Shown: positions 6,516-64,000 of the stretch, piece by piece
Layout of the letters: each line of letters starts with the position of its first letter
How positions within the stretch are numbered: position 1 is the stretch's first letter
NCBI GenBank assembly: GCA_015501585.1
Contig: JADNRY010000107.1
Span: forward strand, 62,001-126,000
Reading direction: 5' to 3'
From: Rhodocollybia butyracea
Taxonomy: Eukaryota; Basidiomycota; Agaricomycetes; Agaricales; Omphalotaceae
DNA length: 64,000 nt
Made by a program: the position numbers and the translations under genes
The notes under the pieces: model-generated
The model's input: the letters and a program-made list of their open reading frames with translations, nothing else
Databases searched by the model: none
What the model was told of the DNA's origin: nothing

Positions 6516-8180
6516 TTAGTCTCGGAGTGTTACTCCAGACATTTGTATAACTATCATCATTCCACTCTTCTCGATAGGCCCCAATGGACTATAGACATCC
6601 CCAACTTCCGTTTCCAACCGATTCAGGAATGTCATGGTAAACGCTCTCAAACAATCTACCTCGAACGCAGATGTCCCCTCAGTACAAAGCTTTCCCGGAT
6701 TCCATCGAGATTGGATCATATCCACTACCAACAGATCTCTAAAAGTTGATGCAGCAACATTCAACAACCTTAGTGAACGTAGTCGGGGGAGTATAGGGGC
6801 TGTCTGCTGACGAAGAGAGCTCGTGCGATAGCTATGGAGGCTTTCTATGAGTTCCGATGATATGGGGCTACATTTCGGTGTAATACCAGAATCGTCGACA
6901 GTGAGATTTTGGAGCGTGGGGATATGGACAAGGATATAGGTGAGGTTGGCATCGGAGATGAACAAGTGTTGAATCGTGAGTGTGGTCAACTGAAAAGCCG
7001 ACGTTTGAATAAACACCATGAAATGTTCCAGGTGACTCCAGGGATCATCGATGTCCCCCCATGTCTTCTCTTCCTTCAAATAGAGCGTCTTCAACGAAGG
7101 AAGCTGGAGGAAACGGAACACTGAGTATGGAAACCTGGGCGGATCGTACCTCTGACCATGGCGTACAGTCAAGATTTCTAGCTTGGAAGAGCAAGCAATC
7201 GTCATGGGATCTACACCGCTACCAGTCCAGGTAGATTCTCCTATGCACAAGGAAAAAAGGTTAGGACATTTATCAAATAGTTTCTCCATGGTACACAGGC
7301 TAGGATCAAAGTCCAGGTGAGACAACTGCGGATGATTTAATCCATCCAGTTGGATGGCAGTGTTTGGCAGATTCAGCGTTTGGAGTTTGGGTGCTGCATC
7401 AATCATTGAAGTGAGATCCTCAGGCTCTACAACTCCACGCGTGTACAGCTCACGCAGAGCTGGAAATGAAGCTCCCCGAATACCACAACGACCCATGATA
7501 TAGCTCAAGGTAAAGCCAGTGTGACAGGTGAAAGACACGCATTGCCAGCGGCCTACCTGACCAAAAATTTGCTTCAACAGTGGGTGAAGTTCGCCTTTTA
7601 CAAAAAGACGAATCTCAAAGTGGACCGTCAGTAGATGTTGTTGTGATCGAGCAAGGAAATTATAAAGTGGGAAGAATCTCGTTTCCATCTCATCCTCGGT
7701 GTATTCATGGTCTTCCCAAAAGCCCCAGTTTAGCGATATCCGGGACCATATAATGGGCATGGAGAGCGCAATTCTCCGCCAGCGAGAGCACACAGAGCTA
7801 ATTACCATCGCGGGTTTACTCTTGAGAGCCTGAGAAAGATGCATAGGTTTGGGTCTGCCATTGACCCGAAAGGTATTCATATCGCAGCAATCGTCAAAGA
7901 TGTCTTGTAAAATCTTGTCAGAAAGTTTGGAAAATGGTGGAATTAGAGATCGTAGTTGAGTCGCATAATGCTTTAGACGTTCCATTTCACGTCCAAGACG
8001 GCGTATTTCCGATTCATAGTCCTCGAGGTCTTGTTTGATATTTATGAGAACCGAGGCGACTTCCTCAGATTGGACAGGGGCAGGACCAGATTCTGTATGC
8101 AAATTGTTTTGTAGTCGGGTAGGATCCATGATTACACGAGGAGTGAAGGTGTTTCCGCCACAAAAAGAACAGAGAGGCAT
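6516..8180 (-). CDS. F-box protein with leucine-rich C-terminal region, copy 1
   Basis: A single uninterrupted 554-residue frame. It starts MPLCSFCGGNTFTPRV with a Cys pair (CSFC). A predicted coiled coil follows at residues about 40-75 (DLEDYESEIRRLGREMERL). The F-box comes next at about 78-125 (IPPFSKLSDKILQDIFDDC, then VCSRWRRIALSMPIIW), matching the fungal F-box-like pattern ending in WR.IA...P.LW. The remainder is a series of imperfect leucine-rich stretches such as LQTLNLPNTAIQLDGLNHPQ and LPSLKTLYLKEEKTW. By family knowledge such proteins are substrate adaptors of SCF ubiquitin ligases that bind Skp1 through the F-box. Agaricomycetes have hundreds of these, and the substrate cannot be inferred. 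It is one of a head-to-tail pair, with the partner at 8721-10390. Confidence 0.85.
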   Translation of the reverse strand: MPLCSFCGGNTFTPRVIMDPTRLQNNLHTESGPAPVQSEEVASVLINIKQDLEDYESEIRRLGREMERLKHYATQLRSLIPPFSKLSDKILQDIFDDCCDMNTFRVNGRPKPMHLSQALKSKPAMVISSVCSRWRRIALSMPIIWSRISLNWGFWEDHEYTEDEMETRFFPLYNFLARSQQHLLTVHFEIRLFVKGELHPLLKQIFGQVGRWQCVSFTCHTGFTLSYIMGRCGIRGASFPALRELYTRGVVEPEDLTSMIDAAPKLQTLNLPNTAIQLDGLNHPQLSHLDFDPSLCTMEKLFDKCPNLFSLCIGESTWTGSGVDPMTIACSSKLEILTVRHGQRYDPPRFPYSVFRFLQLPSLKTLYLKEEKTWGDIDDPWSHLEHFMVFIQTSAFQLTTLTIQHLFISDANLTYILVHIPTLQNLTVDDSGITPKCSPISSELIESLHSYRTSSLRQQTAPILPRLRSLRLLNVAASTFRDLLVVDMIQSRWNPGKLCTEGTSAFEVDCLRAFTMTFLNRLETEVGDVYSPLGPIEKSGMMIVIQMSGVTLRD

Positions 8181-8720
8181 AACTGATACAATGAGCGTAA
8201 GGGAAGAAGATACAAAATTTAGACGCCGAAGCCCGATTTGACCAAAATTATGAAGTTCACTCGTTAAGATCTATTAGTATCTAGTGCGTGTACCTACAGA
8301 ACCTACTTAGCGTCTATCCGAATAAAAGCCATGTCTAAAAGGCAAATATGATAGGGAGAGGCAGATGATCCACAGAAAAACGTCGGAGAATATCAAGTTT
8401 GTGGGTTTACTTGCGGGAAAACCGAACGATGGGTTTCATGGCCATTGCAAAATGATGGAAAGAGAAAAACCTCGAGTTCACAACAAAACAAACCTACTTT
8501 AGAGCAAGAGTTACTAGCTATAATGTCTAACAAACTTTAACACAAGCAACGACCCAGTATCACTTTGAGTCACCTTGAGCATGACAGGCAATGTAGTGGC
8601 TGTTGGTATTCAAAATGCACAAGCTTGTTGTCGAGGGTGAAAGAGCTGTAGTAATCGTAAAAATGTTATTATAGAATCATAACCAGCGTTTAGTAGATAC
8701 TTTCACAACCTGTGAAACCC
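8181..8720. other. Intergenic between F-box copies
   Basis: Promoter of F-box copy 1 (minus strand) and 3' flank of copy 2. Related sequence follows copy 1 at 6440-6515 (for example a TAGTAGATACTTT-like stretch also near 8692-8702), showing the duplicated unit includes the 3' flank. No gene seen. Confidence 0.5.
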
Positions 8721-10390
8721 TCAGTCTGGGACTGTTACTCTATACATTTGTATAACAATCATCATTCCATCCTTCTCAATAGGCCCCAACGGACTATAGA
8801 CATCCCCAACTTCCGTTTCCGACCGATTCAGGAATGTCATAGTAAACCCTCTCAAGCAATCTACCTCGAACGCAGATGTCCTCCCTACAGTGTCAATTCT
8901 GGCAAACCTCCATCGAGATTGGATCATATCCACCACCGACAGGTCTCTAAAAGTTGATACAGCAAGATTCAACAACCTTAGGGAACGTAGTCGGGAAGGA
9001 TAGGTGCCGTCTGCCGACGAAGAGAGCTTGGCCGATAGCTATGGAGGCTTTCTATGAATTCCGATGATATGGGGCTGCGTTTTGTTGTAATACCAGAATC
9101 GTCGACAGTGAGATTTTGGAGGGTGGGGATATGGACAAGGATATAGACAAGGTTGGCATCAGATATGAACAAGTGTTGAATAGTGAGTGTATTTAACTGA
9201 AAAGATGACCGTTTAATAAACATCATGAAATGTTCCAAGTAACTCCAGGGAGCATTGTCATGTCCCCATGCTTCCTCTTTCTTCAAATAGAGCGTCTTCA
9301 ACGAAGGAAGCTGGAGGGAACGGAATACTGAGCCTGGAAACTGGTGTGGAATGCTCTGACAATGGCATACGGTCAACGTTTCTAGCTTGGGAGAATGCAA
9401 AATAGTCATGGGATCATTATACACAGTTTCCCTTATGCACAAGGAAAAAAGGTCGGGGCAGTTGTCAAATAAGTTCTGGATGGAATGGAGGCTACAATTG
9501 AAGTCCAGGCCCATTTGAGACATCTGCGTAAGATTGAATCCATATGGTAGGAGGACCATCAAGTTTGACTGATTCGACAGATTCAGCGTTTGGAGTTTCG
9601 GTGTTGTATCGATAAATGGAGTGAGATCCTGGTGTTCTATACACCCAGTCATGGACAGACTGCTTAGAACCGGAAATGAAGCTGATTGAATACCAGCACG
9701 ATTCAGAAGGTAGCTCAAGGTATAGCGAGGACAGAAGAAAGACAGGCACTGCCAGCGGCCTATCTGCCTAAAAAATTGCTTCAACACCGGGTGAACTTCT
9801 CCTCGATCCAAAAGACCGATGTTAAGGTCAACCGTCATTGGATGTTGCTGTGACCGAGCGAGGAAATTGGACAGCGGGAAGAATGTTGTCGCAGCCTCAT
9901 CTTCGGAGTACTTATGGTCTTCCCATAACCCCCAGTCTAACGATACCCGGGACCATATCACGGGCATGGTGAGCGCATTTCTGCGCCAGCGAGAACAGAC
10001 CGAGCTAATCACCATCGCAGGTTTACTCCTGATAGCCTGAGAAATATGCATAGGTTTGGGCTCGCCATGGACCCGAAAGGTGTTCATATCGCAGCAATCG
10101 TCAAAAATGTCTCGTAAAATCTCGTCGGGAAGTTTGGAAAACGGTGGAATTAAAGACTGTAGATGGGTCGCGTAGCGCTTCAGACGTTCCGTTTCGCCTC
10201 TGAGGCGGTAGATTTCCGATCCGTAGTCCTCGAGGTCTTGTGTGATGTTTAGGAGAACTGAGGCGACTCCATCGGATTGGACAGGGGCAGGACCGAATTC
10301 ATTTGGAAAATTGCATTTTTGGAGCCCGGTGGGATCCATGAGTACGCGAGGTGTGAAGGTGTTGGCACCGCATGAAGAACAGAGGGGCAT
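8721..10390 (-). pseudogene. F-box/leucine-rich protein, copy 2, frameshifted
   Basis: Paralogue of the protein at 6516-8180, with the same order: N-terminal CSSC, coiled coil (DLEDYGSEIYRLRGETERLK), F-box (IPPFSKLPDEILRDIFDDC to VCSRWRRNALTMPVIW), then leucine-rich repeats. The reading frame ends at 8978 after ILPDYVP. Comparison with copy 1, which reads ILPRLRSLRLLN, shows one base missing from the C-run at about 8993-8996 on the plus strand. After it the homologous tail (NLAVSTFRDLSVVDMIQSRW onward) continues in another frame to 8721. The break removes about 90 of roughly 555 residues, so a truncated product with an intact F-box is still possible. A sequencing error in the short homopolymer is an alternative. 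Confidence 0.8.
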
Positions 10391-10823
10391 AGTCGACTGA
10401 GCGTGGAAGAGGACACAAGAGTATTTAGACGCCGAAGCCCGGTTTCACTTGTTAGTATCTGTACACGCAGGTACTTTATTCCAACATCTGCCGGATGCAA
10501 TAGCTGAGCTGTACGGGAGCGCATCTAGCTCCTGACCCTGCGTCAAGAACATCCCCTTCAGTTCAAAGCCGACGCAAACTAACTAGCATTCTACTCATCT
10601 CTATCAGTCAATCCAATGCAAGCTGTTCAACACAGAATATCATTCAGCCTCAAAGAACGTCGGATTAAACTACTAGAAGAATTGTGGTTGGTTATTAAAA
10701 GTCAGAATGGGAATGACAAAAAAATTGAAAGACTCTCGAACATGTCGTATATCATGGTGTATGTATGATTATTCAATCCGAAATGATTTATTCCGGACAA
10801 CCGTACAATCGCTACCTCTTATG

Positions 10824-61319: not shown

Positions 61320-63310
61320 CATATGAGTAGGGCCCCCGTTCCCATTCCCTCCCAACAGCACGGTACGGTATCCTAACGTCTAGTCATCTAGCTCTTCATC
61401 TCTGACTTCTAGGTCGAACCACAACAAGCGAAGGAAGTAGTCGCTTGATACCCAAAACTTTTGATATCCCCAATAATATGATAAACGATTTGTCCGAAAT
61501 GTCAAGAGTAGGCAAGTTGACTGGAATGAAGTTTCGGCGAGCGTTGTTAAGCGGAGGTTCGGAAAGAGGTTCGGGTGGTTGATGGAGGGAGTAGATGGGT
61601 TGTTCGAGTCGTGGAGTAGAGAAGAACAGGCGCGAAGATTGTCACGCAGGATTGAGAAAATCAATGTCCGGATCCAAGGAAGTCAGGCCTGCCGTTACTA
61701 CTTGGGGATCGTCAGAATTTAGAGATTATACAACGATAGTCGTCGCCCGTATGCACCTATTCAACAGCTGGTTTGCCGTAAGGAAGGGGTTTGCTCAAAG
61801 TCCTCGCATTGCTCGTTCTCTGCACCCTCTGTACGTGTACCATGTACCGTCCGTCGATAGCTTTTGTAGTACGTCCAACTTAAACGAAAGAACGTTGGAA
61901 TGAACGGATAGAACGGGCCTGCGTGCGTAGTTACGCAGACAACAACACCTTTCGAATTATTGAATGAGCTGCGTTAGCGTTATTCTTCAAGATAAGTAAA
62001 ATATAGCGTACATAAAGTAAACGAACCATCTTCCCCAAGCCGAAGCGAAAGTGCTAAGAAAAAAGGTCCTTCCCTGCTTCAGGGAACGGTTATTATAGCA
62101 GCGGGCACATTTCCCATTTCCTCCAACAGCACAGCATCCTAACATCACTGCTACCATAACCGACAACTCGGTCAGTGGCGAGGCTTGAAAAAACATCCAA
62201 ATTTGCCGCGGTCCAAAAATTGCAACGAGGTTCTAAGGAAGTGCTGTATGAGCTATAGGGATGGAGCTGAGGCCAGAGAGAATCGCTGTAAGGATGCGGA
62301 GGTCGCTTTTGTTGTTTGATGTTGCGTGATGATGGTGGTACAATGTCAAGCTGCTTGAAATATAAGCGCCAATAACTTTTAGTTATTTTTATGGTACGTA
62401 CATTGAATCGTCGTAAACTGGTTCATCCAACACTCTGGACGACATATATTTTGGCTCTCACTGCTTCTGCTTTCTGCCCCGTAAGAACTGGTCTGGCGGG
62501 TGGGCAAACTCAACAACTGGCAGCGATTGAGCGGTATCAGTGCACTTACATCGGTTTCGAGTGCAAACGCAAAATGAACGGAGAATGGTGAGCTATCAGA
62601 TACAAGTAAAAAGAGATTAGACATCAGGTATGTGTATGAATTAAGAAACAAGGAAACGTACAAGAAAAACATCTTTCGCAACACCTCCGCTCAGCGCTCA
62701 TGACTCAAACTTCCTGACTTCAACATCCCAGACCTTGTGAGTCATGAAGGTTCCCAGGATCTATATCTTCCTCTCCTCTTCTCTTCACCGGCTGCTAGTC
62801 TCATCCTGTAGAATTCCCCCTCCACTTCTGCACCCTTGATATCTCCTTTTACCCAGCGTATCCGACTCACAGACGTGGAAAGACCGAAACACGTTTTCCC
62901 AGCGCGATTTTGGAGACTCGCTACAAACCAAGGCTGAAGCATGACATGTTTGCGCTCTGTAGAACACATGGATTTGTTGAGTGAGTTCTTCGATGCAGCG
63001 TATGCGGCGTGTATCCCGAACCTGGCAATTCGAGGGAAGAGGAGGAGGCCAGGAAATGAGAACGAACATTGAATGAATGTCAGATGTGATAGCGCACAAC
63101 CGTTTCGCGTACTCGGGACAGATGGCTGAAGCCGTCTGCTTGTACCAGCAACCGTCAACCATCCCTATATCTGTGCTCTGTGTTCTGTGCTGAAGCTCGA
63201 GCAACCGACGTTCTGCAGCATGAGATGTTTTTCGAGGACGGGAACCATAGAGTAGGAGCATCAAGAGCACAACGATACACAAGTCACGGTCAGAGTACAA
63301 CGACAAACGA
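61320..63310 (+). repeat. Segmental duplication D2, right copy (interrupted)
   Basis: Counterpart of 53280-54340. Homology runs to about 61672, stops, and resumes at about 62757, the intervening 1.09 kb being absent from the left copy. The copy ends just before the telomeric repeat. Confidence 0.65.
61670..62757. mobile_element. Candidate insertion within duplication D2
   Basis: This 1.09-kb block interrupts D2. GGATC occurs at both junctions (61670-61674 and 62757-62761) and could be a target duplication. A 9-bp inverted repeat, GAAGTCAGG at 61679-61687 and CCTGACTTC at 62713-62721, lies near but not exactly at the ends. No transposase is visible, so it would be non-autonomous. A deletion in the left copy is the alternative. 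Confidence 0.35.
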
Positions 63311-63342
63311 AAACCAATTCATCAAGTTGATTCTCTGCGTGT

Positions 63343-63378
63343 TTAGGGGGGGGTTAGGGGTTAGGGTTAGGGTTAGGG
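63343..63378 (+). repeat. Interstitial telomeric repeats (TTAGGG)
   Basis: TTAG followed by eight G, then TTAGGGG, then three perfect TTAGGG units at 63361-63378, ending in TTGG before unrelated sequence. The G-rich strand runs 5' to 3' to the right, the orientation expected if the chromosome end lies to the right. The array is short and internal, because at least 620 bp of other DNA follow. Confidence 0.9.
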
Positions 63379-64000
63379 TTGGTCCTGACAAAAACGACGA
63401 GTGAGCGAAGCGAACGAGGCGTTTTTTGGAAGGGCCAAGTTCGTTAGTTTGTTGGGTAAGAGCGAAAACAGCCAACAGGGTGTAAGATACTTTCTTACAC
63501 CAAATCCTGTTTCGCTTTTATAGCTCATCAGGGCTGTTTCACATCGTCTAACTGCATACGGACCCAGCGAACATGTGCTCGCCAACCCGTTTCCTCCTCG
63601 TAGGCGCAGGGTTTGACGCGTTGACGGGCCGGAATTCTTCATGAAATTTCGGGCCGGTGAGCTGCCATTCTGTACTTCAACCACCACCGTTGCGAGTCGA
63701 GAGCTGGTTTTCAAGGCTAAGTATGGGATCGGCTCAGGCTTTCATGCACATGACCTGGGTGATGTTGCTAAAGGCTCGTGCTGGCCGGTTCTCATCGATC
63801 TCATCACTCGTCAACAAAGGCTAACAACGATCTTTTTCATCTCGTCTATATCTATGGTTTCTTGCAGAAATGAAATCAAAGATTACACGTTCTACAACCG
63901 CCAATTTGGAGAGAATGAAACTTTTTTTCTTGTGTATCTTTGTTTTTTTCACTATAGCTACTTGCAGATGATCGATGAACGTTTGGACCGCCAGCGTTGG
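63379..64000 (-). mobile_element. End of a probable telomere-attached Penelope-like retroelement
   Basis: Sequence distal to the telomeric repeats. Its minus strand contains a hammerhead ribozyme about 85 bp from the repeats. Known Penelope-like elements carry type I hammerheads in their terminal repeats, and endonuclease-lacking members (Athena in rotifers, Coprina in basidiomycetes) attach to telomeric G-overhangs, giving telomere repeat then antisense element, as here. No reverse transcriptase domain is visible in the 620 bp present; it should lie beyond the window on the minus strand. The element assignment is an inference from the ribozyme and junction. Confidence 0.55.
63464..63542 (-). 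ncRNA. Type I hammerhead ribozyme
   Basis: Read on the minus strand. Stem I is 63542-63532 paired with 63473-63464 (eight Watson-Crick pairs beginning CC/GG, then a G-U). The core CUGAUGA is 63531-63525. Stem II is GCU/AGC (63524-63522 with 63516-63514) with loop AUAAA. The core GAAA is 63513-63510. Stem III is ACAG/CUGU (63510-63507 with 63478-63475), a five-base bulge, then a perfect nine-pair helix (63501-63493 with 63487-63479) and a five-base loop. The cleavage triplet is GUU, with scission expected after U at 63474. All conserved core positions, including G10.1-C11.1 and A15.1-U16.1, are present. Stem I is open, so it is type I. Confidence 0.85.

Follow-up and report, generated by a model that had tools for sequence, protein, structure and literature searches.

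The 5'-truncated tail of a probable endonuclease-lacking Penelope-like element joined to telomere repeats in Rhodocollybia butyracea

Among the retroelements associated with telomeres are the endonuclease-deficient Penelope-like elements (PLEs) of fungi, which we take to be those named Coprina. The hammerheads of fungal PLEs have been described as stable monomers, and a type I hammerhead has the core motif CTGATGA ... GAA ... UH. Priming from the telomeric 3' end is the scheme given for endonuclease-deficient PLEs (PMC3846280) and likewise for the Terminons of bdelloid rotifers (PMC6431247), and in Agaricus bisporus PLEs are reported to lie near telomeres (PMC7473861). Terminons carry a 3' hammerhead followed by reverse-complement telomere repeats, have 5' ends cut short by telomere repeats, form head-to-tail arrays and reach up to 40 kb (PMC6431247). 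Minimal type I hammerheads occur in PLEs and usually lack helix III (PMC6155905, PMC7761336).

The element described here shares with the endonuclease-deficient PLEs of fungi the fungal host, a telomerase-like reverse transcriptase (RT) without GIY-YIG, the attachment to telomere repeats and the 5' truncation; this likeness is set by description rather than by sequence, and the relatives of its RT are found in Lentinula, Armillaria and Psilocybe. It agrees with the Terminons in the order of hammerhead and telomere repeats, in its shortened 5' ends and in its arrays, and differs from them in two respects. The longest copy is about 4.6 kb, with a complete 5' end seen in no copy, and the predicted cleavage site (63474/63473) is separated from the first CCCTAA by 95 nt including the tail, whereas the two are immediately adjacent in the Terminons (PMC6431247). 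Like the minimal PLE hammerheads it is of type I, with a stem I of 8 bp and a stem II of 3 bp, but it has a long stem III of 4 + 9 bp that includes a bulge. The best reading is that of a well-preserved new example of the known Athena/Coprina/Terminon kind, and not of a new system. We consider it highly probable (roughly 0.9) that the sequence in the window is the 5'-truncated tail of an endonuclease-lacking PLE that attaches to chromosome ends with the telomeric 3' end as primer, and the observed arrangement is the one that such priming predicts. No account of a telomere-associated PLE hammerhead from a fungus turned up in the literature searched, although one may exist in print.

The window is the whole 64,000-nt stretch that was analysed, C80:62001-126000 of the Rhodocollybia butyracea genome (95.6 Mb in 1,381 contigs), and the features at its right edge are collected in Table 1. 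A sequence-only reading of this DNA had described TTAGGG units that run rightward and stop at 63378, followed closely by a complete minus-strand hammerhead. The plus strand reads the same way, and our own strict motif finder recovers the hammerhead core as the single match in the 64-kb window, compared to 0 in 100 simulated 64-kb sequences (first-order Markov). The string TTAGGGTTAGGG occurs twice in the window, the two occurrences overlapping and both lying at the telomere-type repeats; shuffling predicts 0.02 occurrences in the window. That reading had also drawn the element through 63379-64000, which proved too long: homology of the window copy to the other copies ceases at 63548, and the DNA from 63549 onward is different and also present on contig C25, ruling out 63343-64000 as a single element. 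Elsewhere in the window, the minus strand holds two F-box/LRR-type genes (6519-8270 and 8981-10444), of a family well represented in R. butyracea.

Table 1. Features at the right edge of the window (positions in window coordinates)
Feature	Position	Strand	Remarks
Telomere-type repeats (TTTAGGG.., TTAGGGG, then TTAGGG units)	63343..63378	+	Left flank on one side, 3' end of the element on the other
Element 3' tail stretch	63379..63440	-	14 places in the genome, telomere-type repeats abutting in all
Penelope-like retroelement, 5'-truncated to 170 bp of its 3' end	63379..63548	-	20 copies; longer ones run into an RT frame
Type I hammerhead ribozyme motif	63466..63539	-	Predicted cleavage between 63474 and 63473
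Non-element DNA, start of a 1,788-bp segment common to C25	63549..64000	.	Opens with a dispersed 40-bp repeat

To define the family, we searched the genome with 63300-64000 (48 matches) and compared 20 stretches around the matches, together with the window, by BLAST. This gave 20 copies of the element 3' end, overlapping loci being counted as one, and the hammerhead core with its stem II has 20 exact sites genome-wide in the same 20 copies. At two mismatches 12 further sites of core and stem II appear, all of them in other sequence; these counts may be lower bounds. Hammerheads with another stem II would be missed. One or more TTAGGG(G) units stand immediately to the left of the element in 17 of the 20 copies, in agreement with the earlier proposal of multiple copies preceded by TTAGGG on the same strand. 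The remaining copies, on C1083, C573 and C423 (3/20), show no TTAGGG at the 3' junction and count against an endonuclease-lacking PLE that attaches to telomeres. In all 14 copies with the tail, the junction directly follows the run of G residues in a repeat unit (GGGGT in 10, GGGTT in 3 and GGGT in 1), and its phase is identical within one nucleotide. A hairpin in the tail is no stronger than in shuffled sequences (z -0.47).

From this arrangement we infer a mechanism of priming and an order of events. The element RNA would end downstream of the hammerhead fold, and its tail would meet CCC(C)TAA in a phase that is constant to within one nucleotide. A telomerase-related RT would then prime on the 3' end of the telomeric G-strand and copy the RNA from its 3' end, and because copying would begin there, the complement of the element would come directly after TTAGGG in the new DNA. 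An early stop, which may be frequent, would leave a 5' truncation, after which the new end would be capped by telomerase or gain another element, and later recombination could bury such an end, as it may have done at the window locus. The truncation point at the 5' end does vary between copies while the 3' junction is fixed, as is expected of copying from the 3' end of an RNA.

The DNA found beyond the truncated 5' ends is of several kinds. On C983, the order is an unrelated flank, TTAGGG, the element with an RT frame, and a telomere array that begins on the truncated 5' end and continues to the contig end; C545 is the other contig with a telomere array at its end near a copy, and there the array lies beyond a 1.66-kb insert. 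TTAGGG-type units are present at the truncated 5' end of C470a, C545 and C25 and between tandem copies, and other DNA is present at that of C80, C290, C478, C1349, C809, C1083 and C470b. Arrays of such elements had been suggested for this locus. Tandem arrangements exist on C1326, C455 and C201: on each of these three contigs the second copy named (C1326b, C455b or C201b) has a further copy of the element as its left flank. At the window copy itself the right side is other DNA.

These flanks also bear on how the copies spread. They might have multiplied mainly by subtelomeric recombination, through break-induced replication or segmental duplication rather than by reverse transcription onto ends. 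In favor of this, the left flanks of C573 and C423 match each other at 99%, the window copy is bordered on its right by 1.79 kb duplicated from C25 DNA, and several copies are followed by other repeats. However, the 400-bp left flanks fall into 19 distinct sequences among the 20 copies, with C573 and C423 as the sole matching pair, and a fixed 3' junction with a variable 5' end likewise argues against recombination, which we regard as an improbable main route.

Some truncated copies end at internal CCCTAA clusters in the 3' untranslated part, a pattern that is suggestive only: 5 of 15 truncations lie within 25 nt of an internal CCCTAA (P = 0.006 over the element, P = 0.32 within the last 600 bp), a set that excludes C423, C457 and C1326b, which are duplicates or lie at a contig edge, and also C201a and C455b. 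On its RNA strand, the C201 copy carries 15 CCCTAA and 1 TTAGGG, at least 3 of the 15 being within junction repeats. It is conceivable, though we think it doubtful, that the element is a phase-locked second telomere-extension system, in which the tail of the RNA has a single phase of pairing with TTAGGG, and internal CCCTAA clusters of the 3' untranslated region become new TTAGGG landing sites after erosion. Were this so, each insertion would provide the seed from which telomerase, or a further element, could continue.

The window copy, taken alone, would fit a non-autonomous, retrozyme-like element of about 170 bp whose hammerhead makes a circular RNA, for it has that length, a hammerhead and no RT. 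The other 19 copies, however, run on past 63548 with a common body and end at various places, and parts of an RT frame are found on 7 contigs (15 RT matches genome-wide). A search for a second, upstream hammerhead with a model of the window hammerhead, across 23 sources, returned 20 places and 20 weak mirror matches on the opposite strand of the same places, and none was a second hammerhead beside the element. Because the longer copies carry the RT frame, a non-autonomous retrozyme without an ORF is rejected for the family, and we give the circular-RNA alternative almost no credence.

On C983 the minus strand encodes 789 uninterrupted residues of a Penelope-type RT. This is the only long uninterrupted frame among the copies, and the N-terminal part present in the relatives is missing from it; both points weigh against an endonuclease-lacking PLE. 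The first residues of the frame come from the telomere array at the contig end, and its C-terminus is about level with that of 11 aligned relatives. The copy on C201 reaches farther upstream, with frames that match a 1,160-aa Lentinula relative from residue 4 (46%) in several pieces. A domain scan of three frames, the C983 frame and two upstream frames of C201, detected no GIY-YIG domain, in line with the minus-strand RT lacking GIY-YIG that had been anticipated. Of 7997 scored candidates, 511 are relatives of the RT, the closest being from Lentinula edodes (60% identity over 97%), and Armillaria ostoyae and Psilocybe cubensis are also named among the 120 of them listed. The RT motifs align between the C983 frame and these relatives, which we take to be PLE proteins on the basis of their motifs. 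Pfam RVT_1 matches the frame weakly (E = 0.011, below the cut-off), and neither the RT protein nor its family profile has a significant match in a PDB sequence search; a search of a viral collection returned no relative. An AlphaFold2 model of the Lentinula relative (mean pLDDT 72) has Candida telomerases as its first PDB matches (E = 1e-8), with LINE-1 next, at a low TM-score to telomerase of 0.25 by query. The modelled structure supports an RT of the telomerase kind and proves no clade. As side observations, divergent RT relatives are present at C503:70075-71472 (L042) and C1338:74938-75309 (27% and 30% identity), and the C503 relative contains stops and is without the hammerhead family.

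With a long RT frame beside a telomere array, 14 junctions that share one phase, and a hammerhead whose stem III is full, this family is an unusually clean set for the study of telomere-primed reverse transcription. The kind of element first proposed, a telomeric Penelope-like retroelement, is upheld by its copies, its TTAGGG junctions and an RT without GIY-YIG. One condition named as refuting that proposal, the absence of an RT within about 5 kb to the right, does hold for the window copy, because that copy is cut off after 170 bp, and fails for the family, with its 7 contigs.

At the window locus, the DNA from 63549 onward corresponds to C25:183628-185415 (1,788 bp, 99.6% identity), and the C25 counterpart has no hammerhead directly before it. 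Farther to the right are pieces common to C478 and C290, both of which are contigs that carry the element. None of the 15 RT matches in the genome is on C80, and the right side is duplicated elsewhere; therefore other subtelomere-like DNA has either been attached to the broken end of the window copy or grown over it, and the junction may also be an artefact of assembly. The window copy is the deepest of the 20, at 72.7 kb from its contig end, and would be an example of such a chromosome end buried inside a contig. Its depth, the missing RT match and the failure to find a telomere array in the last 10 kb of the C80 contig end all count against an endonuclease-lacking PLE at a chromosome end. 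That the window reaches a subtelomere, as had been proposed, can likewise only be inferred, because the copy lies so far inside the contig and the last 10 kb have no array. The dispersed 40-bp sequence TAACTGCATACGG... (63549-63588) starts exactly at the broken end of the element and occurs at several other places in the genome.

The orientation of the copies was compared to the nearest contig end. Sixteen of 20 copies (p = 0.012) and 14 of 16 contigs (p = 0.0042) point outward; the 4 inward copies, on C201 and C470, speak against an endonuclease-lacking PLE extending chromosome ends. When C1326, C455, C457, C573 and C423 are left out, whose ends fall inside the element or in repeats that directly adjoin it, the outward contigs number 9 of 11 (p = 0.065), and the bias could be partly an artefact, because contigs tend to break at repeats.

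The hammerhead was assigned by its sequence, and its activity as a ribozyme is presumed. The stretch is more stable in folding than shuffled sequences (z -4.28), and the strict finder reports an intact core in 18 of the 20 copies. Each of the 10 distinct sequences keeps all 24 hammerhead pairs, and one change (G-C to U-A) is compensatory, a conservation that says little because the copies are 92-100% alike to that of the window by BLAST. It is possible, on the unlikely side, that the fold is a leftover or an RT-binding structure that does not work as a ribozyme, with telomere attachment proceeding without one. Cleavage was dispensable for insertion by a lizard PLE in vitro (PMC11167929), and the minimum-energy fold (-25.9 kcal/mol), in which part of the core is paired otherwise in a non-catalytic manner, is 1.5 kcal/mol better than the hammerhead conformer (-24.4). 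The Rfam hammerhead models likewise give no match in the window at the gathering score, nor in 62500-64000 even at E up to 10, and this, with the 2 of 20 copies that fail the strict core test, also counts against the hammerhead-bearing, endonuclease-lacking PLE that we prefer. The intact core in most copies and, weakly given their similarity, the retained pairs and the compensatory change argue for a working ribozyme.

Several other sequences occur beside the element. A T5orf172/GIY-YIG-like ORF, or its end, lies outside the element copies in L017:7007-8668 (C545) and L026:4180-5330 (C470). The C545 ORF (L017:7857-8351) was considered as an endonuclease of the element and not adopted. In its favor, the C470 partner, diverged to about 68% over 546 columns, is joined by TTAGGG as the C545 segment is. 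The 1.66-kb segment that holds the C545 ORF is without a second long match in the genomic DNA, a single match of 45 bp being at C869; the protein has 79 genome matches including itself, and at the 4 of these 79 loci examined (two of them 99% alike) the 1.2 kb downstream contains neither TTAGGG nor CCCTAA. A repeat starting TTAGAGGCATGTAGG comes right after GGTTA at seven places (L012:5137, L012:9055, L018:1564, L026:6511, L024:1024, L027:5594 and L028:1041), six of them preceded by GGGTTA, and resembles repeat DNA of subtelomeres, in which no long gene is clearly recognizable. Another repeat, starting ACTATTATACTTGACCC (L018:5743, L018:238 and L016:4130), adjoins the element in two cases, at a different truncation point in each, and an unrelated flank in the third.
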